From Candidatus Heimdallarchaeota archaeon (GTDB lineage Archaea; Asgardarchaeota; Heimdallarchaeia; Heimdallarchaeales; Heimdallarchaeaceae), in NCBI GenBank assembly GCA_016839875.1, contig JAEOTK010000364.1, positions 1-29,469 of the forward strand: a stretch of DNA of 29,469 bases, written 5' to 3'. The notes under the pieces were generated by a model. The model ran no database searches. It was not told the DNA's origin and saw only the letters and a list, made by a program, of their open reading frames with translations. Below, piece after piece: positions 1,861 through 29,469 of the stretch (position 1 is its first letter; the number at the start of each line of letters is the position of its first letter). Position numbers and translations under genes: made by a program.

Positions 1861-3885
1861 ATGAAAAGAAGAAAATTCGTTTCAATTATGTTTCTTGTAT
1901 TAATGTTGCCATTATTCAGCTTAGCTAACACCAACGATTCAGTTCAAGCTGAAGGTATGACACCTTTAATTACGAGAGATACAATCGACGCAATTACAAC
2001 AACTACCTACAAAGGTACTTACAATATCACAACATTTGTGGGACCCGATAATGCTTTTAAAGTTGTTAGTGATTCTATTAAAGCTGCTCAAACTTCCTTC
2101 TATCTGGAAGTTTATACACTCTCAAGTGAAGCACTAGTAGATGAACTGATTGCAGCAAAAGGTAGAGGAGTTGATGTAGTTGTTCATTTATCTGAACATC
2201 GTGTGAATTCTTATGAAAATGATTATACCGAAGAATCTGCATGGAGACTAGACAATGCTGCGATAGATGTATATTGGATTGCTGCTTCGCAATTTACATA
2301 CACTCATTCAAAATTCTGGATTGTTGACACTCAGGTAGCTTATGTTTATTCAGGTAACTGGGCACCCTCCAGTTTACCTATGTCTACAGATGCTCGAACA
2401 AACAGAGAGATGGGATTTGCATTTAATGATTCAACAATAGCACAGTATTATGAAGATGTGTTCTTTGATGATGGGTTAAACTATGGAACAGCATATGTAT
2501 CTGGTGCACACACAGGAACTCTTCAAAGCGAAGTAACTGGAACATATGTACCTCAAATAGCTTCTCAAACCTTTGTTGAATATGCAGAAATAACCCCAAT
2601 ATTCGCACCTGACAATAGTTATGAATTGCTTTCAAGTCTGATTGAGAATGCTACAACATCAATCGATTTAGAACTTCAATACATCAAATTTGACTGTGAA
2701 TTGTTATATGACTTAATTGATGCTGCTTTAGGTGGTGTATCTGTTAGAGTGATGATTCCTGAACCTGGTTCAGCTAATGAAAACGTTACAGAAACTCTAA
2801 TCAACAATGGAATACAAATCAAATTCTTCAAGGGAATGTATGATCATAACAAGTATATCTCTGTAGATAATGAAATTGTGCAAATTTCAAGTATAAACTG
2901 GTCAAATAATTCTGTAGTGAACAATAGAGAATCAGGAGCAATAGTAAAGAATTCTAATATAGCCAGTTATTTCAAAACTATATTCGATTATGACTGGGCA
3001 AATAGTGAAACACCAGTTGGCTTTGCAGAACCTGTGGCACTAGCATCTCCAAAACCTGGAGGTATTGCATCTGGTACATTCAATATCCAAGCATCTTTTG
3101 CTATCAACAACTATACATCAGGAGAATTATTTATTGATTCTGTATCTGTCCATACTTGGTCAAATCCTGACGGTATTGAAGGATATAGTGTTGATACAAC
3201 AACATATGATGATGGAATTCATACAATCAAAATAATAGGAACTCCCGATGTTGGTTCACCAGTTCAAATTGAAGAGAAAATTAACATCATTAATACAGCA
3301 GATTGGCTTCTTCTAATATCAGAAATCAGATATGATGGTGTAACTGAACCAAATGGAGAATTTGTAGAATTATACAATGGTTTTAGTTTTGCGCTTTCAA
3401 TTGAAAACTGGGAAATAACAGATAGTGAAGGAGAATACATTATCCCTGATGAAGCTCAAATAACCGCTGGTGGTGTATTAGTTTTCGCTCAAGACAGTAC
3501 AACTTATGTGGACGAGATGAGTGATTTAGGAATAACTGTTGCAGCAGCCGATTATGGTTTAGGAGATATAGCTTTGAGTAACACAGGTGACGATGTTCTC
3601 TTGAAAGATCCTTCAGGCAACACTAAGGATGCTGTTGCATGGGGTTCAGGATCTGTCTCTGGAGTTGTTTCTTGGAGTGGTGGATCCACAGGTGATGATG
3701 AGACTCTTCAAAGAGAACCTGCAAACTCGGATACAGATGACTGTGATGCGGACTTTGTAATTGACACACCAACCCCTGGTACCGTTGGTGCTGTAACACC
3801 GGAATTCACAAAGATTTTCATAATTCCTATAATTGGACTTTTTGCAGTAGTATCAATATTTATTCGACAAAAAAGAAAGAGGTAA
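1861..3885 (+). CDS. Secreted, membrane-anchored phospholipase D-like protein with lamin-tail domain
   Basis: 674 aa. The N-terminus is a signal peptide (MKRRK, then a hydrophobic stretch; cleavage probably near residue 30). Two PLD-type HKD motifs follow: H149-x-K151 with D156, and H329-x-K331 with D336, each followed by the usual S-x-N-W segment, so one polypeptide carries a full two-motif active site. Residues ~405-475 look like an Ig-like beta domain. Residues ~483-645 match a lamin-tail domain (LLISEIRYDG...GEFVELYN...IENWEITD). A membrane helix at ~650-668 followed by RQKRKR anchors it with the catalytic part outside. The PLD superfamily cleaves phosphodiester bonds in lipids or nucleic acids; the substrate here is unknown. 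The gene appears to have its own promoter: a TATA-like stretch near 1830-1837 lies ~26 nt before the ATG, and an AT tract directly abuts the start. Confidence 0.85.
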   Translation: MKRRKFVSIMFLVLMLPLFSLANTNDSVQAEGMTPLITRDTIDAITTTTYKGTYNITTFVGPDNAFKVVSDSIKAAQTSFYLEVYTLSSEALVDELIAAKGRGVDVVVHLSEHRVNSYENDYTEESAWRLDNAAIDVYWIAASQFTYTHSKFWIVDTQVAYVYSGNWAPSSLPMSTDARTNREMGFAFNDSTIAQYYEDVFFDDGLNYGTAYVSGAHTGTLQSEVTGTYVPQIASQTFVEYAEITPIFAPDNSYELLSSLIENATTSIDLELQYIKFDCELLYDLIDAALGGVSVRVMIPEPGSANENVTETLINNGIQIKFFKGMYDHNKYISVDNEIVQISSINWSNNSVVNNRESGAIVKNSNIASYFKTIFDYDWANSETPVGFAEPVALASPKPGGIASGTFNIQASFAINNYTSGELFIDSVSVHTWSNPDGIEGYSVDTTTYDDGIHTIKIIGTPDVGSPVQIEEKINIINTADWLLLISEIRYDGVTEPNGEFVELYNGFSFALSIENWEITDSEGEYIIPDEAQITAGGVLVFAQDSTTYVDEMSDLGITVAAADYGLGDIALSNTGDDVLLKDPSGNTKDAVAWGSGSVSGVVSWSGGSTGDDETLQREPANSDTDDCDADFVIDTPTPGTVGAVTPEFTKIFIIPIIGLFAVVSIFIRQKRKR

Positions 3886-8791: not shown

Positions 8792-11548
8792 ATGTCTATA
8801 TCCAAAGAACAACTAAAGGAAAGATTCAAAAAAGAAGACTATGAAGTCGCTCTTTTCAAGGAAAAGGGTTTCACACGAAAGCAATGTCCTATTTGTAACC
8901 ATAACTTTTGGACACTAGTACCAGAACAAGAAGTATGTGGAGATACTAGATGTGCTGGCGGATACAAATTCTTAGATAAGAAAGGCAAGAATCTGGATTT
9001 TGATAAAGCAATTAAAAGTTTAACAGATTTCTTCGTTAAAAATGGTCATACTGCCATAAGAGATTATCCTGTTGTTTCCAGATGGAGAGCTGATATGGAT
9101 TTCACAATTGCTTCAATTGCAGATTTCCAACCTTGGGTTTTAGAAGGTGTTATTGATCCTCCTGCGAATCCACTCGTAGTTCCCCAAATGTGCATTCGAA
9201 CTGGAGGTGAGTTTAGTGATATAGACAATATTGGCAAGACAGCTAGACATCTAACCAGTTTCGTTATGTTTGGTCAGCATTCATTTAATTCTGCGACTTT
9301 AACTGATGGATATTGGATGGATAGATGCTTGGAACTTAATTTCAAATATCTAACAGAAGAGTTAGCACTAAAACCTGAAGAAATATCTTATGTGGAAGGC
9401 ATATGGTCTGGTGGAGGTAATTTTGGTCCCAACCTAGAAGCAATGTCCTATGGAGTTGAAGTTGTAAATAATGTTTTCATTGCTTACGGATTTGAAAATG
9501 GTGCAGTAAAAAAACTAGATATGCAAGTTATTGATGTTGGTTGGGGATTGGAACGATTATCATGGTTTAGTCAAGGAACACCTACAATCTACGAAGCTAT
9601 TTTTCCTAAAGCTATTGAATATCTGCAAAAAGAAAATGGATACAAACCAGATCGTGATTTGTTACTAGAATATAGTAAATTATCTGGACTTTTAGCTGTT
9701 GAAGAAGCTAAAAATCTAAAGCAAGAAAGAATTCAGATGGCTAAAAATCTGGGTATGACCTATGATGAAATGATAGACAAATTAGGAAAACAAGAAGCCA
9801 TATATGCAATAGCGGATCATGCAAGAACACTTTCATTCACTATTGCAGATGGGGCAATTCCATCTAATGTGGGTGGTGGGTATAATCTCAGAGTGCTCCT
9901 AAGAAGGATAGTAGCTCTGAAAGAATTATTCAATCTTCAATTCTCTATTGGTAAGCTTTTTGATATGCAAATTGACCATTTATCTGTTTCTTATCCCAGA
10001 GTAAGGGAACATAGAGAAGATATTCACAAAATCATAGATATTGAAGTAAAAAGATATGAAGATACAAAAAACTCTGGAAGAAGGATAGTCAATCAGCTTC
10101 TCACTAAGCAGAAAGAATTCGATTTTAAAACTCTTCTTGATCTTTATCAAAATAATGGTATCAATCCTCTTATGATTAAAGAATTAGCCAAAGAGAAGAA
10201 TGTAGAAGTAGATGTTCCTGATGATTTTTACATTAAAATGGAAGATATTCTTGTTAAGCAAGCTTTGAAAGAGAAGAAGATCAAAGAAGAGGAAATTGAG
10301 TTTAAAGAAGAACACACAACTCAACAAGCATTTTATGAGGATGTTTACAAAACCGAATTTGAAGCAAAAGTTGTAAGTGTTATTAATGACCACTATCTTG
10401 TTCTTGATACAACTTTATTCTACCCAACAGGTGGTGGACAGATACACGATATTGGTACTATTGAAGCAGATGGAAATGAATTCCATGTAGAAGATGTTTT
10501 CAAGAAAGGTCCTACAATTGTGCACAAAACAACAGAAAAATTCTCTCTAAAAGCTGGTGTAAAAATTAAAGGAAAAATTGATGGAAAACGAAGATTAGCA
10601 ATAATGCGTCATCATACTGCAGTTCATGTCGTGAATAATGCTGCAAGGGAAGTTTTAGGTCAGCATGTTTGGCAAGCTGGTGCAGATAAAACAGAAGAAA
10701 AAGCAAGACTTGATGTTACTCATTATCAATCTATTTCATTTGAAGAACTACAAAGAATAGAGATGCTAGCTAATAAAATTGTGTTTGAAAATCGGTCTAT
10801 ATCAAAAATCAATCTAGATAGAGATGAAGCAGAAAAAGACTATGGCTTCCAAATTTATCAAGGAGGAGTTGTGCCTGGTAAAACTCTTCATATTGTTTCT
10901 GTAACTGATTGGGATATTGAAGCATGTGGAGGGACACATCTTGATAATACTGGTGAGATTGGAATAATCAGATTAACAAGTAGTGAAAGAATACAAGATG
11001 GTGTTGTTAGGATAGAGATTCTAGCAGGAGAACCAGCACTGAAGTATATACAAGGACAGGAATCATTGCTGTTTGAATCAGCTTCAATACTTAGCATTGA
11101 ACCTAAAATCCTACCAAAAACAGCAAAACGATTCTTTAATGAATGGAAAGAACAGAAGAAAACAATCGAAGCTCTGAACAAGCAAATTGCAGAACTACAA
11201 TTTTCTCCTTCAAAAGTTCAATCAAAGAAAATTAAAGATGTTGATGTAATCGTTAAGCAAACAACAGGTAATCAAAAGGAGCTAATAGTACAAGCTGCTG
11301 AAGCAGTTAAATCATTTGAGAAAGGATTATGCATACTGTTCTCAAAGCAGGAAAAGAAGGTTCTCATAGTTTGTTCCAGATCTCCAAATTCTAATTTGGA
11401 TATCTCAAACATTATACAAGAGATTTCATCGTTACTCGGTGGTTCAGGAGGAGGAAAAGGAGATATTGCAGTAGGTGGAGGACCTAATATTGACAAACTT
11501 CCAGAGGTCCTTAAAGAAGTAAATAGGATAATAGAATCAAAAGTATAA
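8792..11548 (+). CDS. alaS: Alanyl-tRNA synthetase (archaeal type)
   Basis: 918 aa, the usual archaeal length. It charges tRNA-Ala and hydrolyses misacylated Ser/Gly-tRNA. The N-terminus has the archaeal cysteine-rich extension (CPICNHNF...CGDTRC). The class II core includes DYPVVSRWRADMDFTIASI and FGQHSFNSATLTDGYWMDR. The editing domain has the zinc ligands H607-x3-H611 (HHTAVH) and C712-x3-H716 (CGGTH). The C-Ala end carries the glycine-rich GGSGGGKGDIAVGGG. All catalytic and editing residues that I can see are intact. It is monocistronic, with its own TATA box and a T-run after the stop. Confidence 0.97.
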   Translation: MSISKEQLKERFKKEDYEVALFKEKGFTRKQCPICNHNFWTLVPEQEVCGDTRCAGGYKFLDKKGKNLDFDKAIKSLTDFFVKNGHTAIRDYPVVSRWRADMDFTIASIADFQPWVLEGVIDPPANPLVVPQMCIRTGGEFSDIDNIGKTARHLTSFVMFGQHSFNSATLTDGYWMDRCLELNFKYLTEELALKPEEISYVEGIWSGGGNFGPNLEAMSYGVEVVNNVFIAYGFENGAVKKLDMQVIDVGWGLERLSWFSQGTPTIYEAIFPKAIEYLQKENGYKPDRDLLLEYSKLSGLLAVEEAKNLKQERIQMAKNLGMTYDEMIDKLGKQEAIYAIADHARTLSFTIADGAIPSNVGGGYNLRVLLRRIVALKELFNLQFSIGKLFDMQIDHLSVSYPRVREHREDIHKIIDIEVKRYEDTKNSGRRIVNQLLTKQKEFDFKTLLDLYQNNGINPLMIKELAKEKNVEVDVPDDFYIKMEDILVKQALKEKKIKEEEIEFKEEHTTQQAFYEDVYKTEFEAKVVSVINDHYLVLDTTLFYPTGGGQIHDIGTIEADGNEFHVEDVFKKGPTIVHKTTEKFSLKAGVKIKGKIDGKRRLAIMRHHTAVHVVNNAAREVLGQHVWQAGADKTEEKARLDVTHYQSISFEELQRIEMLANKIVFENRSISKINLDRDEAEKDYGFQIYQGGVVPGKTLHIVSVTDWDIEACGGTHLDNTGEIGIIRLTSSERIQDGVVRIEILAGEPALKYIQGQESLLFESASILSIEPKILPKTAKRFFNEWKEQKKTIEALNKQIAELQFSPSKVQSKKIKDVDVIVKQTTGNQKELIVQAAEAVKSFEKGLCILFSKQEKKVLIVCSRSPNSNLDISNIIQEISSLLGGSGGGKGDIAVGGGPNIDKLPEVLKEVNRIIESKV

Positions 11549-11594: not shown

Positions 11595-11948
11595 CTATAG
11601 TTTTTTTTGCTCCTCTAATCTAACTGGAGATAATGAACGAATCTCAATAGGTACAGAGTTTGGTGCAACCATTACAGTTTCTGCAGAAACCATTTTTAAC
11701 GTTGCATGTAATTTAGAAGATTGGTCTTTGAGAGATTTCAAAAAATCCCTTTTTCTTTCAGGAAAAGAAGCAATTCGACTGATATTTAAAAATATTAAAT
11801 TCCCTTCTTCAACCTCTTCCATTATTCGATCAGTTTTTACTACATCCACTAGAGAAAAGAACTTAACTCCAGGTGGTTTTTCTGCAGCAATATTTTCTTC
11901 TTTAGTTACATTGGATGATTGACGAGAAAATTTCCTCTTAAGAGCCAT
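11595..11948 (-). CDS. sepF: Archaeal SepF-like cell division protein
   Basis: 117 aa from the ATG at 11948; a TTG at 11969 would add seven residues, but the ATG has an AGGTG about 10 nt upstream and is preferred. The C-terminal ~80 residues match the SepF core: KFFSLVDVVKTDRIMEEVEEGNLIFLNIS, a helix (RKRDFLKSLKDQSSKL), then VSAETVMVAPNSVPIEI, like the family's strand-helix-strand with the 'vlvtP..v.i' end. The basic N-terminus (MALKRKFSRQ) resembles the short membrane-targeting helix of SepF. In archaea SepF tethers FtsZ to the membrane and was described in most FtsZ-containing lineages. It converges with alaS and lies upstream of nothing obviously divisome-related. Recognition is by pattern only and could be wrong. 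Confidence 0.7.
   Translation of the reverse strand: MALKRKFSRQSSNVTKEENIAAEKPPGVKFFSLVDVVKTDRIMEEVEEGNLIFLNISRIASFPERKRDFLKSLKDQSSKLHATLKMVSAETVMVAPNSVPIEIRSLSPVRLEEQKKL
11601..11608 (+). terminator. T-run terminator of alaS
   Basis: Eight T on the + strand, 53 nt after the alaS stop. The tract lies inside the last codons of the convergent sepF gene, where it encodes lysines on the other strand. Confidence 0.4.
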
Positions 11949-12068
11949 AGGTTTTACACCTAATATCAAAAACTGAGAATCATCTTAAAAGCAGATTAAT
12001 ACAGTAGTAACATGAGGGTAATACTAGTTAAGATTGAAAAATGAACAAAAGAAAAGGAAGAAGCTTAA

Positions 12069-13229: not shown

Positions 13230-15122
13230 TTATGACTTGTGTCTGATTCTCTTCCTTCGATATACTATGAAACCTGTCAGAGTTAGGAGAGTGAGAGCAC
13301 CTGAAATTGCATACGGAGTCTCAAGAGGAGTGGTTATAACCTCTGGCAGTACAATATTGAATTCTATGTAAGAATTATATTCATTTCCAGCTTTATCCAC
13401 AGCTGATATCTTTACAGTATAATTACCACTGAGCACATAATAATGGAAAGCATAAGTATCATCAGTTACATTAAGAATAGTTCCATCATCCCAGTCAATA
13501 TATACATATAGAATTCCTGAATAATCATCACTATAACTAAACTCTAATTCAACATATCCATTTTCTATTGCTGTTTCATTATCTGAGAAACTAGATATTT
13601 CCAGTAATGGTGGTGTAAAATCTAAATAGATGAAACTGGATGTATCATTTGTTGTTCCTAATGATGTATTCACATACAAAACAACAGTAAAAGATGCAGA
13701 TGCTCCGCCTACACTGTATGTGTGTGTTGTTTCAACATATTCTTGACCATTTTCCTCTAGAACAAAGAGGGTAAGATTTTCTAATGGAGTTCCATCTCCG
13801 TAGTCAAACAATACTCCAGTAATATTTCCTCTTACTGTATCAATATCACAAGTGAAAACTATTGTTTCATTATTGAAATAAGTTCCATTCAATGGATGAA
13901 TTGATAATACAGGTACAGAATTGAAGATTTCAATGGTTCTTAGTGTGAATGTTTCATTGTAATATTCTCCATAGTAGATATTATAAGCTTCATAATGAAT
14001 GATGTTGCCTAGATCAAACACACCTATTGAAACATTGAATTCCCTAATAGTATCATTGAAACCATTTAGTTTTGTATAATTATATTCAGCTCCAAGAATC
14101 CCTTCACTCAAGGTCCAAGGAACAATCTCTGTATCATTTGTAGAACTTTCAGTTACATAATACTGAATTCCAAAGGTTTCAACATCAGTGGCATTAGCTG
14201 TTTTAATCGTAAAATCTACGCTATCCACATCAGTATGTGACTCACTTAAGATGGTCCTTGAGTTGAAATAGAAACCATTGTTTATTCTATAAATGTTCAA
14301 ACTATCTCGTAACTCGTTTGTACCTCCCCAGGTGTCCCAACCATGGGAATTATTTGCACAGAAATATATTGTTCTTGCAGTAAGTGTTATTGTTGTATTA
14401 AATGTTTCAAATTGAGGAATAGATGAATTATACCAATCCAGTTTAATGAAAGTTATATCAGAATCAAAGATATTTAATGAAGCATTAAAGATTTTATCTC
14501 TGTATACTGAAAGAGCCAAGGTAACATTATCTTCAGGAGTACCACCATAAACTTTATAGCTTATAGATATTGTGTGGTTAGTTTGATTTGAAGGTGCATA
14601 ATATTCATTAGGAGTGGGGGTTTGTGTTGCATTAACTATACTGTGAAACTCTGGGGGGAGTCCTTCCTCATTTACGAACAAATAATGCCATGGTTCTAAA
14701 TGATTGAATACTTCAACTTCTTCATAGGTTCCATTTGTTTTCAAACCAATGTAACCGTACCCTTTGAAGATTGTATTCCCAGTGAGTGTAAATGTTCCGG
14801 TATAGTAAGATCTATCGACAGCCGAACTAGAATAATTTAACTCTAAGCTCACACTTGGATCCATATCTAATCCAGATCCACTTCCAACTATTACAACTCC
14901 GCTTACACCAACAAAACGGTCAACAGAGTACTCAACTGTTATTTCAGTTTCATTGGGAAAGTTAATACCAGCATATGTTTCAAATCCTTCTGCTGTAAAT
15001 CCTTCAAAAACAGGTTCTGCTGTACTTGCAGCTTTTACATTGTTGTTTAACAAATGTCCCATAGTAAATGAAAATGCTATTATTGTAAGTAATAGTAAAG
15101 TGCTTGCTTTTCTGTTTCTCAT
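13230..15122 (-). CDS. Large cell-surface glycoprotein with PKD/Ig-like domains and C-terminal anchor
   Basis: 630 aa. The N-terminal signal peptide is clear (MRNRKAS then LLLLTIIAFSFTMG; cleavage near KAAS, ~residue 32). The rest is beta-rich and very rich in N-x-S/T sequons (NTT, NDT, NGT, NET, NYT and more), as in N-glycosylated archaeal surface proteins. Two PKD-like modules are visible: FDYGDGTPLENLTL with a later HTYSVGG, and IDWDDGTILNVTDD followed by GNYTVKISAVDKAGNEY. A C-terminal hydrophobic helix (AISGALTLLTLTGFIVY) and RRKRIRHKS anchor it in the membrane with the bulk outside. It could be an S-layer-associated or adhesion protein; no enzymatic motif is seen. A TATA-like element (15153-15165, minus strand) lies ~37 nt upstream of its ATG. 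Confidence 0.82.
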   Translation of the reverse strand: MRNRKASTLLLLTIIAFSFTMGHLLNNNVKAASTAEPVFEGFTAEGFETYAGINFPNETEITVEYSVDRFVGVSGVVIVGSGSGLDMDPSVSLELNYSSSAVDRSYYTGTFTLTGNTIFKGYGYIGLKTNGTYEEVEVFNHLEPWHYLFVNEEGLPPEFHSIVNATQTPTPNEYYAPSNQTNHTISISYKVYGGTPEDNVTLALSVYRDKIFNASLNIFDSDITFIKLDWYNSSIPQFETFNTTITLTARTIYFCANNSHGWDTWGGTNELRDSLNIYRINNGFYFNSRTILSESHTDVDSVDFTIKTANATDVETFGIQYYVTESSTNDTEIVPWTLSEGILGAEYNYTKLNGFNDTIREFNVSIGVFDLGNIIHYEAYNIYYGEYYNETFTLRTIEIFNSVPVLSIHPLNGTYFNNETIVFTCDIDTVRGNITGVLFDYGDGTPLENLTLFVLEENGQEYVETTHTYSVGGASASFTVVLYVNTSLGTTNDTSSFIYLDFTPPLLEISSFSDNETAIENGYVELEFSYSDDYSGILYVYIDWDDGTILNVTDDTYAFHYYVLSGNYTVKISAVDKAGNEYNSYIEFNIVLPEVITTPLETPYAISGALTLLTLTGFIVYRRKRIRHKS

Positions 15123-15877: not shown

Positions 15878-15919
15878 CCTAATTCTTCTCGTATAAACAA
15901 TTGAGCCAGGTTGAAAAGG

Positions 15920-17215
15920 ATGGATGATCTAAAATCTTTCTACAAGGAAAAACAAATCGAATTTATTCAGTTTCAATTCACTACAATTTTTGGAGATTTA
16001 AAAGCAGTTGAATTTCCCTCAAATATTTGGGACGAAATGAGTGGTGGTACAGGTGTAGATGGATCATCATTAGGTTTTCTAGAAACTGAACAAAGTGATA
16101 TGAAAGTGATTCCTGATTACAAAACACTTGGCATCATTCCTTGGGAACCAAGAGTGGCAAGATTCATTTGCGATATCCATGACAATGACGGAAAACCTCA
16201 TCCAACAGATCCGAGAAGTATTCTAAAGAGAACTATTAACAAAGCAAATGATTTAGGATTCAGTTATAAGACAAGACCTGAGCTCGAATGGTTCTTCTTA
16301 GATGAAGATTTAGAACCAGTAGAGAATGGACAATATATGGATACATTGCCATATGATGTTCTAGGAGTGCTTCGTCGATCCATAGCACTCGATATGATGT
16401 CAATGAATATACCTGTAAAAACTATCCATCATGAGTGTGCAAATGGACAGCAGGAAATTGAGTTTATGGTTCAAGATGCCCTTATTCAAGCTGATAATAC
16501 TCAAACAGCGAAATTAATAATTAAAGCTGAATCTCTTTTCGATGAAGTTATTGCTACTTTCATGCCAAAACCTTTTGCAGATCAAGCTGGATCTGGATTT
16601 CATATCCATCAGTATATAGCAAGAGAAGGAAAGAACATATTTGCAGGTGAAGGAGAGGATATTAGTGAAAACCTAAGGTTCTTTGTTGGTGGAATATTGG
16701 AACATGTAGATGCCATGACAGCGTTTTTCAACCCTACTACAAACTCCTACAAACGTCTCGTTCCAGGACATGAAGCTCCAGTTTTCAAATCCTGGGGAGT
16801 TGGTAATAGAACAGCTCTGATACGAATTCCAGGTTATGAAAAGAAAGCAAGAATTGAATATCGAGCAACAGATGGTGCGAGTAACATCTATTTAGCTTCA
16901 GCTTTATTGCTAGCAGCTGGTCTTGAAGGTATAAAGAAAAAATTGGAACCAATAGAACCGACAACTAAGAATATAGAGAAGCTTACTTCAGAAGAAAGGA
17001 AAAACATGGGCATAACACAATTACCTCAAAACCTTGGTGAAGCTTTGGATAATTTAGAACAAAGTACTTTTGTTTCTGATATTCTTGGTAAGGATATTGT
17101 GGAGATTTTTCTTGAAGTAAAAAGAGATGAATTAAAACAATTTTCAGAAGCAAAAAGTAAGGGAACAGATGAAGAGTGGGAATGGGAATACGACAAATAT
17201 TTGGAAAGAGCTTGA
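15920..17215 (+). CDS. glnA: Glutamine synthetase, type I
   Basis: 431 aa from the ATG at 15920; an in-frame TTG at 15911 would add three residues, but the ATG is the better start. It makes glutamine from glutamate, ammonia and ATP. Family signatures: the N-terminal beta-grasp with FIQFQFTTIFGDLKAVEFP; the metal-binding glutamate region RPELEWFF; GSGFHIHQ; NSYKRLVPGHEAP; and ARIEYRATDGASNIYLASAL. The region that carries the adenylylated tyrosine in enterobacterial GlnA reads KNIEKLTSEERKNMG and lacks a tyrosine, so control by adenylylation is unlikely. It has its own promoter and is divergent from arginine decarboxylase. Confidence 0.96.
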   Translation: MDDLKSFYKEKQIEFIQFQFTTIFGDLKAVEFPSNIWDEMSGGTGVDGSSLGFLETEQSDMKVIPDYKTLGIIPWEPRVARFICDIHDNDGKPHPTDPRSILKRTINKANDLGFSYKTRPELEWFFLDEDLEPVENGQYMDTLPYDVLGVLRRSIALDMMSMNIPVKTIHHECANGQQEIEFMVQDALIQADNTQTAKLIIKAESLFDEVIATFMPKPFADQAGSGFHIHQYIAREGKNIFAGEGEDISENLRFFVGGILEHVDAMTAFFNPTTNSYKRLVPGHEAPVFKSWGVGNRTALIRIPGYEKKARIEYRATDGASNIYLASALLLAAGLEGIKKKLEPIEPTTKNIEKLTSEERKNMGITQLPQNLGEALDNLEQSTFVSDILGKDIVEIFLEVKRDELKQFSEAKSKGTDEEWEWEYDKYLERA

Positions 17216-17315: not shown

Positions 17316-19391
17316 TTGATAACACTGAGCTTTGAGCGAGAAGATATCTATAATCTGGATTTTTCTGAATTGGATATTCCAGATATAAAATTAACCAAGA
17401 CAAAAAGAGCTCATTTATTATCTTCATTATTTCTGTATAGGGATATAGTTTTATCTGAGTATGCATCAGAACTTGAAACTTCAGAGGAATCTATAAAGCA
17501 ATATATCCAACTCCTTATTCAAGCATTAATAATCAGAGGGTATTATCGTAAGAATAGATTCATAGTTGCATCAGTCTATAGACATCCAGAAATAAGCTCG
17601 GGGAGACTAACAACTCTAAGAAAGAACATATTAGGAACATTAATTGGATCTCCAAAAATCAAAATTTCTCACCTTTCTAAGATTCTAAATATCTCAAAAA
17701 AAGACATTGTAGGTCATTTACTATTTCTTACAAGTAAAGGCCTTCTTATTGGTAATCTTAGACAAGAGGAGCTTACAACTGTATGGATTTGGAATCCTGA
17801 AGACAAAGTCAAAATAACGGCAAATGATACTTTCATCATTGGAACATGTATGATGTTGAGAAATGCAAACTTAGAAGAAGTAGCAAAATACACAGAGTTC
17901 TCACGTGAAGAAATTTTTGAAAAAATTGCAAATTTAATGCTTCACAGAAAGCTTGAAGCTTCAATTACTATTGGACCAAAAGTACTGGGAAAAAGCAATA
18001 TATTAGTAAATGTAAGAAAATATCTTATCTCACCAAAAATTCTCCCATTAAGCTCTTTGCAGGGTGATGAAAGAGATATAGTAGGATACACACTAATTAA
18101 AAAACGAATTTCCATTCAAGAGCTTGCTAAACTTACTGAAAAAAAACCCATAGAAATTGTGAGGATTCTAGCTTTCTTAACAGCAAGAGGAACTTTTCAA
18201 TTTGTTTTTGCACAACCTAATATCCTTGTTCCTGTTGTAGTTCCAGAACTAACACCAAAGCGTACAATTGAGGAGATGGCTACTCTTTCATTTTTCAATT
18301 ACGAGGCCCTTTTCGGTTTATTATCCACACAAAGCAGAATCACATTGAAGAAGCTAGCAGCGCTGATGAATAGAACAGATGATGAAATTACTGAAGGCAT
18401 AATTACCTTAGTGTTGGAAGGATTTGTTTCTTGTACTCTCAAAGGAAACGTCCTATCCTTAGATAAGATTAAGCGATATAGTAGAGCACAAGAAGGGACA
18501 TTAGATCGATGGGAAAAAATTGTCTTAGGAATGATTATTGCAAAAACAACCATTACAGTAAAGGATATCTCATTAGCATTGGGAATAGACAAGTATTTTG
18601 CAAAAGAGAAACTATATGCGTTTTATGGAAAGGGATTAATTAAGGGTACAATTAGTGGTAGTCGATTGATTCCAGATGAAATACCTATATTTCCTCCACT
18701 AGTCCAACTCGATGATTTACCGGTTCATTTTCAGGAAATATTCGGTTTCTTGGTTGGTAATGATAAAGCTTCAATAAAAAACATCCAATCCATTTGGGAA
18801 AAAACTCCAGTCGCTGCAAGAAACATTATCTATGAAATAACAGGATCGGGTTTAGCACATATTGAATTAAATGGAGGTAAAATTGGTCTAATATCTCACC
18901 AGAAGATACTTCCCAGTAAAGAACTAGAAGATATGGGGGAGACATATGTTAAGCTTGTAAATGAAATCGAGAAATCGAGAAGAAGAAGAACTAGGATTAG
19001 CAATATAGCTGATAAAATCTCATTAGCAGAACATGATGCCTTCAAAATGATTTGTCAATTGATCGCAAATGGATATTATAAGGGAAATCTTACAGCAACT
19101 TTCTTTGAAAGAGTGGGAAGATTGAGTCTGCCTTCAAAGAAAATGCATTGTCTAAATTGTGGACATGTTATTACTTCTGTTCACCAATCATGTGGAAATT
19201 GTGGTCAGTATCCTCAAAAGTGCATTATTTGTCAAGGACTAGTTAAAAGAGGAGATAATATTCTGGAATGTCCAAACTGCAATAATCTAGCTCACAAAGA
19301 TCATATGTTACAATGGCTTAAGATTAAAGAAGAATGCCCAATCTGTAAAACAAAAGCAACTCGTCGAACATTGAAAGCTTACGCCACATAA
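17316..19391 (+). CDS. Tandem winged-helix protein with C-terminal zinc ribbon and RING-like domain
   Basis: 691 aa from a TTG start; no in-frame ATG occurs before the first folded repeat. Residues ~20-600 are a chain of about eight winged-helix-like units of 60-80 residues, recognisable by recurring patterns such as ISIQELAKLTEKKPIEIVRI and ITLKKLAALMNRTDDEITEG followed by a basic or hydrophobic wing. Residues 612-629 form a CxxC-x10-CxxC zinc ribbon. Residues 636-677 form a second domain: C636xxC639, C652xxC655, H660xxH663, then WLK and C674xxC677. This eight-ligand order resembles RING/Nse1-type cross-brace fingers. Tandem winged helices plus RING-like recalls Nse1, and tandem winged helices alone recall UFL1, the UFM1 ligase; both links are structural guesses. 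A DNA-binding or scaffold protein is the alternative. Confidence 0.85.
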   Translation: MITLSFEREDIYNLDFSELDIPDIKLTKTKRAHLLSSLFLYRDIVLSEYASELETSEESIKQYIQLLIQALIIRGYYRKNRFIVASVYRHPEISSGRLTTLRKNILGTLIGSPKIKISHLSKILNISKKDIVGHLLFLTSKGLLIGNLRQEELTTVWIWNPEDKVKITANDTFIIGTCMMLRNANLEEVAKYTEFSREEIFEKIANLMLHRKLEASITIGPKVLGKSNILVNVRKYLISPKILPLSSLQGDERDIVGYTLIKKRISIQELAKLTEKKPIEIVRILAFLTARGTFQFVFAQPNILVPVVVPELTPKRTIEEMATLSFFNYEALFGLLSTQSRITLKKLAALMNRTDDEITEGIITLVLEGFVSCTLKGNVLSLDKIKRYSRAQEGTLDRWEKIVLGMIIAKTTITVKDISLALGIDKYFAKEKLYAFYGKGLIKGTISGSRLIPDEIPIFPPLVQLDDLPVHFQEIFGFLVGNDKASIKNIQSIWEKTPVAARNIIYEITGSGLAHIELNGGKIGLISHQKILPSKELEDMGETYVKLVNEIEKSRRRRTRISNIADKISLAEHDAFKMICQLIANGYYKGNLTATFFERVGRLSLPSKKMHCLNCGHVITSVHQSCGNCGQYPQKCIICQGLVKRGDNILECPNCNNLAHKDHMLQWLKIKEECPICKTKATRRTLKAYAT

Positions 19392-19404
19392 GAAGGTGCA
19401 ATAT

Positions 19405-19728
19405 ATGGATTTGAAAGATATTATTGATGAATTACGTATATTTCTGAAAGAAAGAGAATGGTTGGATTTCTCTCAACAAGATGTTTTTGTTCATTTGATT
19501 GAGGAACTAGGTGAGATAGGTAAGTATTTACTCTTTTCAACTGGATATAAGACTGAAGAAAGAGGACATGAGAAACCAACAAAGGAAGAACTGGCTAGAG
19601 AATTTGCTCAAGCTTTTTCTCTATTTATTCAATTGTGTATACTTCTAGAAATTGATTTGGAGGAAGCGTGGAAAAACGAGATTGAATTTATGAGAAAAAG
19701 ATTTCCACCAAACGATAAATACAAATAG
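19405..19728 (+). CDS. MazG-like nucleotide pyrophosphohydrolase domain protein
   Basis: 107 aa. The start at ATG 19405 is favoured over the GTG at 19396 because AAGGTG sits 6 nt before it. It is all-helical: VHLIEELGEIGKYLLF carries the EExxE part of the MazG metal site. The second helix (EELAREFAQAFSLFIQLCIL) should carry ExxD but reads E-F-A-Q, so one acidic ligand seems replaced by glutamine. The end (IDLEEAWKNEIEFMRKRFP) is characteristic of the family. MazG-type enzymes hydrolyse NTPs to NMP and pyrophosphate, often clearing damaged nucleotides. Activity is uncertain given the substitution. It lies 13 nt after the winged-helix/RING-like gene, so they are probably co-transcribed. Confidence 0.7.
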   Translation: MDLKDIIDELRIFLKEREWLDFSQQDVFVHLIEELGEIGKYLLFSTGYKTEERGHEKPTKEELAREFAQAFSLFIQLCILLEIDLEEAWKNEIEFMRKRFPPNDKYK

Positions 19729-19750: not shown

Positions 19751-20491
19751 ATGAAAAAAACAGAAAAGAGCCAGCAATCCAGTAGTAAGAAGAAAAGAAG
19801 AAGTAAGAGCAGCTTCATTACTGTGAAAAATGTCTCTAAGAGCTATTCGCTAGGAGAAGTAGAGGTAAAAGCTTTGGATAAAGTATCTATTTCCATAAAT
19901 CAAGGTGAAATTGTCTCGATTGTTGGCCATTCAGGGAGTGGAAAAACAACATTGCTTAATGTGATAGGAGCATTAGATTATGTTGATTCAGGATCTATTG
20001 TTGTCAATGGAAAGAAGCTAAGTGAGATGACTGATCGAGAATTAAGTTTTCTTCGTAGAGAAACAATAGGATATGTTTTTCAGAATTTTAATCTGCTAGA
20101 AGAAATAAATGCGGAGAAAAACATTGAAATGCCTTTGATTCTTGCAAGAATTCCAAAAGAAGAAAGAAAAAAACGAGTAGAAGAATTACTTGAATCTGTT
20201 GGATTAGTCAAACGAAGAGGGCATAAACCTGATCAGCTCAGTGGAGGAGAACAACAAAGAGTTGCAATAGCTCGAGCACTAGCAAACAATCCTAAAATCA
20301 TCCTAGCTGATGAACCCACAGGTAATCTTGATTCATCAACCGGAGAAAAAATCTTGGACCTTCTTCTCGATTTAAGTAAAACTCATAAGAAAACACTCGT
20401 GTATGTCACTCATCAACACGATCAAGCAATTTTAGCCTCAAGACAACTATTAATGACTGATGGTACTATTGTTGAAGATTCTTCAGGTTAA
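19751..20491 (+). CDS. ABC transporter ATP-binding protein (LolD/MacB type)
   Basis: 246 aa. Complete ABC ATPase: Walker A GHSGSGKT (59-66), Q-loop YVFQNFNLL, signature [15 protein letters not shown], Walker [12 protein letters not shown], and H-loop VTHQHD. The sequence is closest in pattern to the LolD/MacB/FtsE group, which normally pairs with a FtsX-like permease. It has an unusual lysine/serine-rich N-terminal extension of ~20 residues. GAGGTG lies 11 nt before the ATG. No FtsX/MacB permease is nearby; the next two genes encode other membrane proteins, which may or may not be partners. Confidence 0.92.
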
Positions 20492-26450: not shown

Positions 26451-27293
26451 TCAGGTCAGAAATGCAAGTAGAAACCAGACTATAGCTATGAGCACTATTG
26501 AGACAATATTAAGAATTGCATACAAATTGAATGTTTCTTCATTGTATATCTTATTCACATTTTGAGCTATTGTATTCAATCTAGTATCAATAGATTCGAG
26601 TATTTCTTTACCTTCTCCTCCTTCAACATATTGCTCAGATGCTTCACTTAAAACATCAACAAAACCATGTAGAAGCTCTTTATCTTCACTTTCTAATGAA
26701 GGTGAAACGACAGTTTCAAGCTTCTGATGCAGAATTCGAACCTCAGCTTTAGAAAGCTTAGGAAGCTCCCATTTCAAATCAACTTCAACTAGATTTGACA
26801 GATGCTTAGTTATATCATCAAAGAAGTACCCAAATGGAATAGCTTGATAATCTAGATCACTTATTAGTCTGAAGAATTGAATCTCTAAATCCTTCTGTTT
26901 GGATGTCTTGTAATATTTTGAAGGATCTATGACTAAAGCAACTGCTTGAGGAAATAAATTCTGATAAGTACGTTGAGTACCCTTATCTGTCCCAGATAGA
27001 AAACATCCATATGAGGGGTGAGTATGAGCCCACCCTACGATAGATTCCCTTTTATCTCGATGTTGTAAATCTTCAACAATTTGTACAAGAGCTTCATCAT
27101 CTAATACAACGAACGTAGATGTTTGTTTTTGCTTTCCTGTATCAAAATCTGTTATTACTAAAGTTTCCCCATCATCACTGAGATACCCTAATAAGACACC
27201 AGCAGATTCCTTTGAAGGATCTATAGCATCAACTGTAAGTATCTTGGCTATAGCATATGCGGATATCAGGATTTCTTTTTTAGAATGAGTCAT
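26451..27293 (-). CDS. Tail-anchored Rpn11/CSN5-like JAMM isopeptidase
   Basis: 280 aa. The MPN+ domain covers ~1-150: E29 in KESAGVLLG, then GWAHTHPSYGCFLSGTD, giving H90-x-H92-x7-S100-x2-D103, the full JAMM zinc site. The surrounding wording (G-W-x-H-x-H-P-x-x-G-C-x-L-S-G-x-D, then TQ) follows eukaryotic Rpn11 and CSN5 more than bacterial or simple archaeal JAMM proteins. These remove ubiquitin-like proteins from substrates. Residues ~150-250 are helical and partly coiled-coil-like (KAEVRILHQKLETVV, IDTRLNTIAQNVNKI). Residues ~257-279 form one hydrophobic helix at the extreme C-terminus, so the protein is probably tail-anchored with its active site in the cytoplasm. It follows the atypical kinase gene by 49 nt. 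Confidence 0.9.
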   Translation of the reverse strand: MTHSKKEILISAYAIAKILTVDAIDPSKESAGVLLGYLSDDGETLVITDFDTGKQKQTSTFVVLDDEALVQIVEDLQHRDKRESIVGWAHTHPSYGCFLSGTDKGTQRTYQNLFPQAVALVIDPSKYYKTSKQKDLEIQFFRLISDLDYQAIPFGYFFDDITKHLSNLVEVDLKWELPKLSKAEVRILHQKLETVVSPSLESEDKELLHGFVDVLSEASEQYVEGGEGKEILESIDTRLNTIAQNVNKIYNEETFNLYAILNIVSIVLIAIVWFLLAFLT

Positions 27294-28525: not shown

Positions 28526-29469
28526 ATGATGACTAGTAGTGAAATAGAGCTTCAACTAAAATCTAAAACAAGTGATATTCTTATGAATCCGGAGGAAAAT
28601 GAAGAAGAATTAGTAGACTGGGATAAAAGGAATATTACAAGATTTGCTCAATATCTATACAATCTTGCAAAAGAAAAGGTGAAACAAGATAAGGATATTG
28701 AAGAAGATGTTCTTGAAGAAGTGCTAAAAAAAGTTGAAGAAGAAGTTAAAGAGGATCTTAAAGAAAAAGTGAGGGAGAAAGTAAGAGAAAAAGTTATTAC
28801 TGGAATAAAAGAAGAACCTCCTCCAATAACGGTTTCAGATTATGATTCATTAGATGATAGAAGTGCTAGAGAACAGACACTAGAAGAGGTAACAATCGGT
28901 TTAGCTAAAGCTGTAGATGGAGAGGAGATAACAGGAGCAATTGAACCTGTAGATCAAGCTGAGATTAGAGAAATTATTGAAAAAGAACAAATACCTATTC
29001 CTTCCGAAGATTTAGAAGTAACACATAAACTTGAAGAAAAAATGGATCTTGAAGAGATTTTTGAGCCAGAGATTTCCTTTACTTCTGAAAGTATAGAAGA
29101 AGTTGTTGAAGAAATAGTTGAAGCAACAATTGAGAGTTTAGAACCTATAATAGAAGAACATATGAGTAATCTTGAACCTGTCAATCTTTCAAGCCCTATT
29201 GTTATGGAGCCCATTATAGATGAAGAAGTACTTATCCAACCAGATAGCATTCCTGAAGATATTCATAAAATAATATTTGTGGATGAAGTTACTAGTGTTC
29301 CAATTACAGAAGAAGAAGCAATTGAGATGGAAGAAATTATCTCAATTAAACCCTCAGAAGAGGTAGTAGTCACAGAACCTGTAGAAGAAGTAGTAGTCAC
29401 AGAACCTGTAGAAGAAGTAGTAGTCACAGAACCTGTAGAAGAAGTAGTAGTCACAGAACCTGTAGAAGA
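28526..29469 (+). CDS. Very acidic repeat protein, N-terminal part (cut by window end)
   Basis: Open from ATG 28526 (a second ATG follows at once) to the last base; at least 314 residues, no stop reached. The N-terminal ~50 residues look like a small folded helical segment (VDWDKRNITRFAQYLYNLAKEK). Next comes a charged helix with the short repeat KEKVREKVREKV, then a long Glu-rich, low-complexity region (IEEVVEEIVEATIESLEPIIEEH), and at the end perfect 9-residue units EEVVVTEPV. No signal peptide, cysteine or membrane segment is seen in this part. The family is not recognised. Such a chain could be a linker, scaffold or stalk preceding a C-terminal domain or anchor outside the window. It is divergent from the kinase gene with a 136-nt shared upstream region. 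Confidence 0.82.
   Translation, partial: MMTSSEIELQLKSKTSDILMNPEENEEELVDWDKRNITRFAQYLYNLAKEKVKQDKDIEEDVLEEVLKKVEEEVKEDLKEKVREKVREKVITGIKEEPPPITVSDYDSLDDRSAREQTLEEVTIGLAKAVDGEEITGAIEPVDQAEIREIIEKEQIPIPSEDLEVTHKLEEKMDLEEIFEPEISFTSESIEEVVEEIVEATIESLEPIIEEHMSNLEPVNLSSPIVMEPIIDEEVLIQPDSIPEDIHKIIFVDEVTSVPITEEEAIEMEEIISIKPSEEVVVTEPVEEVVVTEPVEEVVVTEPVEEVVVTEPVE
29357..29469 (+). repeat. 27-bp in-frame tandem repeat
   Basis: Four complete 27-bp units (29357-29383, 29384-29410, 29411-29437, 29438-29464) plus five bases of a fifth. The first unit differs by one silent base (GAG for GAA); the others are identical, indicating recent expansion or ongoing homogenisation. Each codes for EEVVVTEPV. The array is cut by the window end, so copy number is unknown. 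Confidence 0.95.

Follow-up and report, generated by a model that had tools for sequence, protein, structure and literature searches.

A probable scaffold-type RING ubiquitin ligase built on eight winged helices in Heimdallarchaeota

What is the role of an archaeal protein that joins a long row of winged helices to a zinc ribbon and a RING finger? The question is raised by a gene at 17316..19391 (forward strand) in a stretch of 29,469 nucleotides (contig JAEOTK010000364.1, hereafter the window) from a Candidatus Heimdallarchaeota archaeon, a member of the archaeal group nearest to eukaryotes. The gene, here termed WH8-RING, encodes 691 aa from a TTG start, stop codon included. An earlier note, made from the sequence alone, had given this open reading frame (ORF) with correct length and coordinates, and its start is supported by the many homologues that begin at the same position. 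The note likened the protein to Nse1 and UFL1 and considered an ancestral ubiquitin ligase (E3) or a chromatin-complex subunit. Our analysis makes it rather probable that Heimdallarchaeaceae and related Asgards have in WH8-RING a scaffold-type RING ubiquitin E3 ligase. It would be an E3 with a RING of the type found in the archaeal protein srfp, new in carrying this RING on a scaffold of eight winged helices.

An AlphaFold2 model based on 29 sequences (mean predicted local distance difference test score, pLDDT, 88.2; predicted TM-score, pTM, 0.69) consists of eight winged helices, a zinc ribbon and a RING. Together with invariant zinc ligands, it confirms the domain order read earlier; independent zinc ribbons in place of a RING, which the note had named as the opposing outcome, did not appear in the predicted structure. 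The ribbon (19140..19211, +; residues 609-632, with Cys 612, 615, 626 and 629) is the less confident part of the model (pLDDT about 72-79). It is followed by the RING (19212..19364, +; residues 633-683), with C636, C639, C652, C655, H660, H663, C674 and C677 as ligands. The Pfam profile zf-RING_2 scores 31.9 bits on the tail alone (cut-off 27.3) and 26.7 bits, just under the cut-off, on the whole protein. The RING model matches RNF165, Rad18, RNF4 and the Prp19 U-box (best root mean square deviation 1.2-2.1 over about 50-57 residues), and these fold matches predict a cross-brace topology for what had been described as a C2-C2-H2-C2 finger. All 12 zinc ligands, four in the ribbon and eight in the RING, are invariant in the 29 aligned WH8-RING sequences, and they are kept in 9/9 sequences of a wider set whose eight members other than the query are 21-53% identical to it. 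Members of alignments A1 and A6 were chosen by homology; in alignment A2 of ribbon-RING modules, the ligand invariance results from selection, as modules were chosen by their ligand pattern.

The RING layout, C-x2-C-x12-C-x2-C-x4-H-x2-H-x10-C-P-x-C, is common to WH8-RING and to RING frames of 80-132 aa that lie near genes for ubiquitin-conjugating (E2) and ubiquitin-activating (E1) enzymes in other Asgards, one of which has one extra loop residue. Thirteen E2 loci were read, nine of them picked for a RING match on the same contig; 11 held a RING ORF, and ten of these RINGs, after one had been dropped by length, make up our srfp profile. This profile scores WH8-RING at 63.7 bits (E 6e-16) and matches 44 of 45 protein entries, while the best PDB sequence, EL5, reaches 32.3 bits. 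Shuffled controls with fixed ligands peak at 32.5 bits in 300 trials, compared to 71.6 bits for the real stretch alone, and these controls together with the ligand invariance in 29 sequences rule out a chance zinc motif. Other Asgard ribbon-RING tails reach up to 66.5 bits with this profile. Since the tails score so well and some of them are slightly closer to the WH8-RING module by identity than the operon RINGs are, operon RINGs and tails form one group. By its sequence, the WH8-RING finger falls among the archaeal operon RINGs (srfp) and the tails of other Asgard proteins and does not belong to Nse1 or UFL1. This grouping with RINGs beside E2 genes puts the E3-ligase-type assignment on firmer ground than the earlier note could know; ligase activity would be expected from it.

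The finger carries the features of RING-type E3s: a hydrophobic residue at 638, W667 after the sixth ligand, P675 before the last one, and K678 at the linchpin position. W667, P675 and K678 are present in 29/29 aligned sequences, and position 638 is isoleucine or valine in all of them; in the wider set, the tryptophan is kept in 8/9 and a lysine or arginine at the linchpin in 8/9. For srfp of Caldiarchaeum, the passages of PMC5654768 on this protein describe third and fourth ligands displaced by two, an extra cysteine, and I30, W58 and R69 as residues that matter by mutation. I30 would lie two residues past the first cysteine, and WH8-RING has I638, W667 and K678 at the places matching these three residues, so that they are its expected E2-contact residues.

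Upstream of the zinc modules, winged helices fill most of the chain. According to the secondary structure of the AlphaFold2 model, winged helix 1 spans 17397..17588 (+; residues 28-91). It is followed in the model by winged helices 2 (17613..17789, +; residues 100-158), with weak helix-turn-helix and regulator matches, 3 (17820..18023, +; residues 169-236) and 4 (18063..18233, +; residues 250-306), which a UFL1/DDRGK1 winged helix and regulators match equally well. Winged helix 5 (18300..18470, +; residues 329-385) has an acidic third helix and is the best part of a match to the Pfam PCI domain, which has E 3.7e-9 when its stretches are summed along the chain, while none passes by itself. Winged helix 6 (18507..18674, +; residues 398-453) is defined by the model and by conservation, number 7 (18723..18899, +; residues 470-528) is PCI-like, and number 8 (18939..19115, +; residues 542-600) has a basic patch near 554-561. 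Winged helix 6 is the most conserved of the eight (19 of 56 columns at ≥97%), and the linkers flanking it, 386-397 and 454-469, are more conserved still (mean majority residue 85-86%).

Foldseek searches with the whole model gave as best match the UFL1-DDRGK1 chimera 8b9x (E 4e-7), followed by TFIIIC tauB and by UFL1 on the 60S ribosome; 8b9x is also the top match of a second model of residues 460-691 (mean pLDDT 78), which has no PDB match at E ≤0.001 and whose RING matches are short but close. Query-normalized TM-scores are at most 0.13 among the whole-model matches listed, so that the likeness concerns tandem winged helices and not the whole arrangement. In VIA-align, the winged helices of the model match single ones from COP9, the proteasome lid, eIF3 and UFL1/DDRGK1, and the Z values for a number of DNA-binding regulators are similar. 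Overall, the likeness of the modelled winged helices is greatest to the UFL1/DDRGK1 and PCI scaffolds, although taken singly they match regulators about equally.

Homologue searches, in which about 8000 word-sharing candidates of similar length were scored, revealed 42 WH8-RING homologues at the protein level (43 rows including the window's own protein) with 77-100% coverage, and 14 genome loci, of which 13 belong to Heimdallarchaeota and the remaining one to an 'Asgard group archaeon'. Two homologues carry the source names 'E3 ubiquitin protein ligase' and 'RING finger domain-containing protein'. No relative is named from outside Asgards, eukaryotes included, in these searches of 43 and 44 rows, each including the window's own protein and most without an organism name, and the term 'ancestral' used before therefore finds no backing here. 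No paper on the family was recognized among the search results from an open-access library, a scope that leaves aside preprints and most subscription journals.

Relatives that carry the family have the E2 and, where tested, the ubiquitin that such a ligase would require. E2 (PF00179) is found in 167/227 Asgard genomes, including all 33 counted carriers of the family (a tally of best matches with E <1e-30, 23 close and 10 divergent), and ubiquitin in 23/23 carriers tested. Among 19 E2s from as many carriers, the loop 1 phenylalanine is present in all and W-[TA]-P-A in loop 2 in 18. In genome G007, the 7-8 kb read around the ubiquitin/E1 and E2 genes contain no RING of the WH8-RING pattern. Some genomes have further ubiquitin-like systems: L035:3162-9789 (similar in L038 and L039) encodes an E2, a JAB protein, a 118-aa ubiquitin-like protein (Ubl) and a ThiF E1, together with a RING protein of the membrane and two further membrane proteins. 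In the two loci L077:1782-4711 and L078, a UFC1-family E2 lies with a JAB-type protease and a ThiF E1 that reads as UBA5-like.

We propose that the RING would dock on a canonical Asgard E2 (loop 1 F, loop 2 P-A) via I638, W667 and P675, with K678 as the linchpin that may close the E2~ubiquitin intermediate, while the ribbon could set the position of the RING. The winged-helix chain probably holds the target of what is probably a large ubiquitin ligase. As a PCI/UFL1-like platform, it might keep a substrate or partner protein in the region of residues 386-470, where one is expected because winged helix 6 and its linkers are the most conserved parts.

Several observations weigh against a WH8-RING ubiquitin ligase. 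The gene does not lie beside ubiquitin, E1 or E2 genes, and the E2 of the window's own organism is deduced from relatives. Some other Asgard tails (39% identity) are slightly closer to the WH8-RING module than three aligned operon RINGs (31-35%), and the most divergent family member, L059, has tyrosine and glycine at the W and K positions. Ribbon-RING tails similar to that of WH8-RING in GATOR2 and IFT-A (intraflagellar transport complex A) are structural and sit on propeller or solenoid proteins. The WH8-RING tail might likewise be a structural joint, and the protein a scaffold without catalytic role in a complex that is PCI-like or associated with a membrane. We consider this rather unlikely, as the E2-contact tryptophan and K/R are kept in all close and in 8/9 wide family members, the E2-linked RING profile gives WH8-RING roughly double the score of any PDB sequence, and the model has no beta-propeller. 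That its RING groups with RINGs from loci of canonical E2 and E1 genes speaks against an E3 for another ubiquitin-like modifier, for example that of the second E2-JAB-Ubl-E1 cluster of Heimdall genomes. Such clusters, with an own RING membrane protein, do occur in some carriers, and Ubl genes of this kind in several; however, where a RING was seen (L035, L038), the second cluster has its own RING gene in both copies, and we regard this explanation as unlikely.

A nucleic-acid-binding regulator or transcription factor with tandem winged helices as in TFIIIC or RPC62, its zinc modules being accessories, has to be weighed as well. WH8-RING is basic (isoelectric point 9.3), which leaves room for a nucleic-acid role, and its single winged helices match transcription regulators about as well as they match scaffolds. 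The earlier note had named best structural matches to plain transcription regulators as an outcome against its reading, and in view of these single-domain matches this test of the winged helices is not clean. On the other hand, third helices carry a mean net charge between -4.1 and +0.8 in seven of the eight winged helices and reach +1.8 in winged helix 6 only, so that most of them are not likely to read DNA in the ordinary way. In addition, the Foldseek E-value for UFL1/DDRGK1 is about ten times better than that of the best TFIIIC match, and a regulator would leave the ligase-type RING unexplained, so that we judge it quite improbable. Nse1 likewise has winged helices followed by a RING variant, but two winged helices compared to eight. 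No Nse1 family is among the Pfam matches up to E 1 and no Nse1 structure among the matches listed; an Nse1-like subunit of an SMC5/6-type complex is highly improbable, and the chromatin role considered before finds no support.

The ribbon-RING is not confined to WH8-RING. In 8/8 Heimdall genomes, the family profile finds one full-length member and 4 to 15 other places (E up to 0.001), which match the tail or little more; at 1e-6, 159/227 Asgard genomes have a match, with at most five candidates scored per genome and some matches being small operon RINGs. Among the proteins with such a tail are membrane proteins, surface proteins of Ig-like type and, at L027:1468-4458, a Dna2-like nuclease-helicase with the RING at its C-terminus. 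RING-matching ORFs of 984-1072 aa occur in six of the other seven Heimdall genomes profiled, where they are known from match and length. A 1022-aa, probably secreted or membrane protein at L034:835-3903 ends in a zinc ribbon-RING, with 1014-1022-aa ORFs of the same tail match in seven other genomes, and a 3558-aa ORF at L043:2460-13136 carries one near its C-terminus. The module profile aligns with the WDR19 and GATOR2 tails over both zinc units. It is conceivable, if on balance doubtful, that Asgards derived a portable ribbon-RING tail from the srfp of the operons and added it to a range of scaffolds, the UFL1/PCI-like array of winged helices in WH8-RING being one of them. Eukaryotes would have inherited this tail, which in some of their proteins is an active ligase and in coat-like complexes (GATOR2, IFT-A) a structural joint. 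If true, WH8-RING would be a living relative of a pre-eukaryotic stage in which multidomain ubiquitin ligases that select their substrates came into being. The recurrence of the tail and its alignment with WDR19 and GATOR2 are grounds for such an inheritance and for a structural tail in equal measure.

The gene neighbours of WH8-RING gave no hint of function. Upstream lies a glutamine synthetase gene (15911..17215, +), kept in most Heimdall loci read. Downstream, a conserved 110-aa ORF without Pfam match (19396..19728, +), which from its sequence we take to be MazG-like, starts 4 bases after WH8-RING and is followed by a conserved ABC-transporter ATPase gene (19751..20491, +); the synthetase and ATPase genes were assigned by Pfam and locus comparison. 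The ATPase gene follows WH8-RING in 13/13 Heimdall loci that reach downstream, with the MazG-like ORF between them in ten; in the other three it was not called by a caller that needed ATG and 80 aa. No E1, E2 or ubiquitin family was found in the 22 window ORFs scanned, a scan that did not extend to the three large ORFs at 1861-3885, 8792-11548 and 28526-29467. The window also encodes a PKD-domain protein with a C-terminal hydrophobic segment (13230-15122), a SepF-like protein (11595-11969) and, 7 kb off WH8-RING, a JAB/MPN-family protein with a C-terminal hydrophobic segment (26451-27293). In 3/7 divergent loci (L056, L057, L058), a PKD-domain membrane protein homologous to that of the window lies directly downstream of WH8-RING.

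Compared to known systems, WH8-RING resembles Nse1 in having winged helices before a RING but shows no sequence match to it and no Nse1 fold among the matches listed. The helical half of PCI proteins (COP9 signalosome, 26S lid, eIF3) was not seen in WH8-RING, which has eight winged helices in a row and a RING. With GATOR2 (WDR59, WDR24, MIOS) and IFT-A (WDR19) it shares a C-terminal ribbon plus RING that aligns over nearly the whole module, whereas its model has winged helices throughout, without a beta-propeller or alpha-solenoid. The best Foldseek match among E3 scaffolds is that of the UFM1 E3 UFL1/DDRGK1 (UFBP1), likewise built of tandem winged helices. This part of the UFL1 likeness proposed before stands, with 8b9x as best match, and family membership does not: PF09743 is not among the Pfam matches up to E 1, and hhalign against six Asgard PF09743 proteins gave a probability of 33% (E 4e-4 for the one comparison). 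PF09743 ORFs of 252-284 aa in 10/23 carriers (six read) are genes other than WH8-RING. UFC1-like E2s (PF08694) reach E 0.01 in only 4/23 carriers. The UFL1 family is presumably what IPR018611 denotes. This is the one E3 accession given in the part of an Asgard ubiquitin-gene survey that deals with E3s (PMC9192718). UFL1 itself is described, in the relevant passage of PMC9627666, as without features of known E3 domains. According to a passage of PMC10183829, UFL1 and DDRGK1 seem to have arisen in Asgards, and UFC1 and UFM1 are seen only in eukaryotes, although PF08694 is over the cut-off in 3/23 Asgard genomes. The passages of PMC10183829 and PMC9192718 on Asgard UFL1/DDRGK1 and ubiquitin genes do not concern the WH8-RING family.

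In its RING, WH8-RING groups with archaeal srfp without being nearest to it. The archaeal ubiquitin ligase whose reconstitution is described in PMC5654768 is an operon RING of minimal size. That this RING subtype also occurs on a long scaffold, in a conserved protein of 691 aa, suggests that Asgard archaea already had dedicated E3 ligases able to select substrates, and WH8-RING, with RING residues to mutate and a likely E2 known, is a concrete test protein for such early E3s. WH8-RING resembles Caldiarchaeum srfp (as covered in PMC5654768) in RING subtype, in a ligand layout with an extra cysteine and in I/V, W and K/R at the E2-contact positions, but unlike the srfp-type RINGs, which are frames of 80-132 aa near E2/E1 genes, its finger stands at the end of a chain of 691 aa whose gene lies at an unrelated locus.
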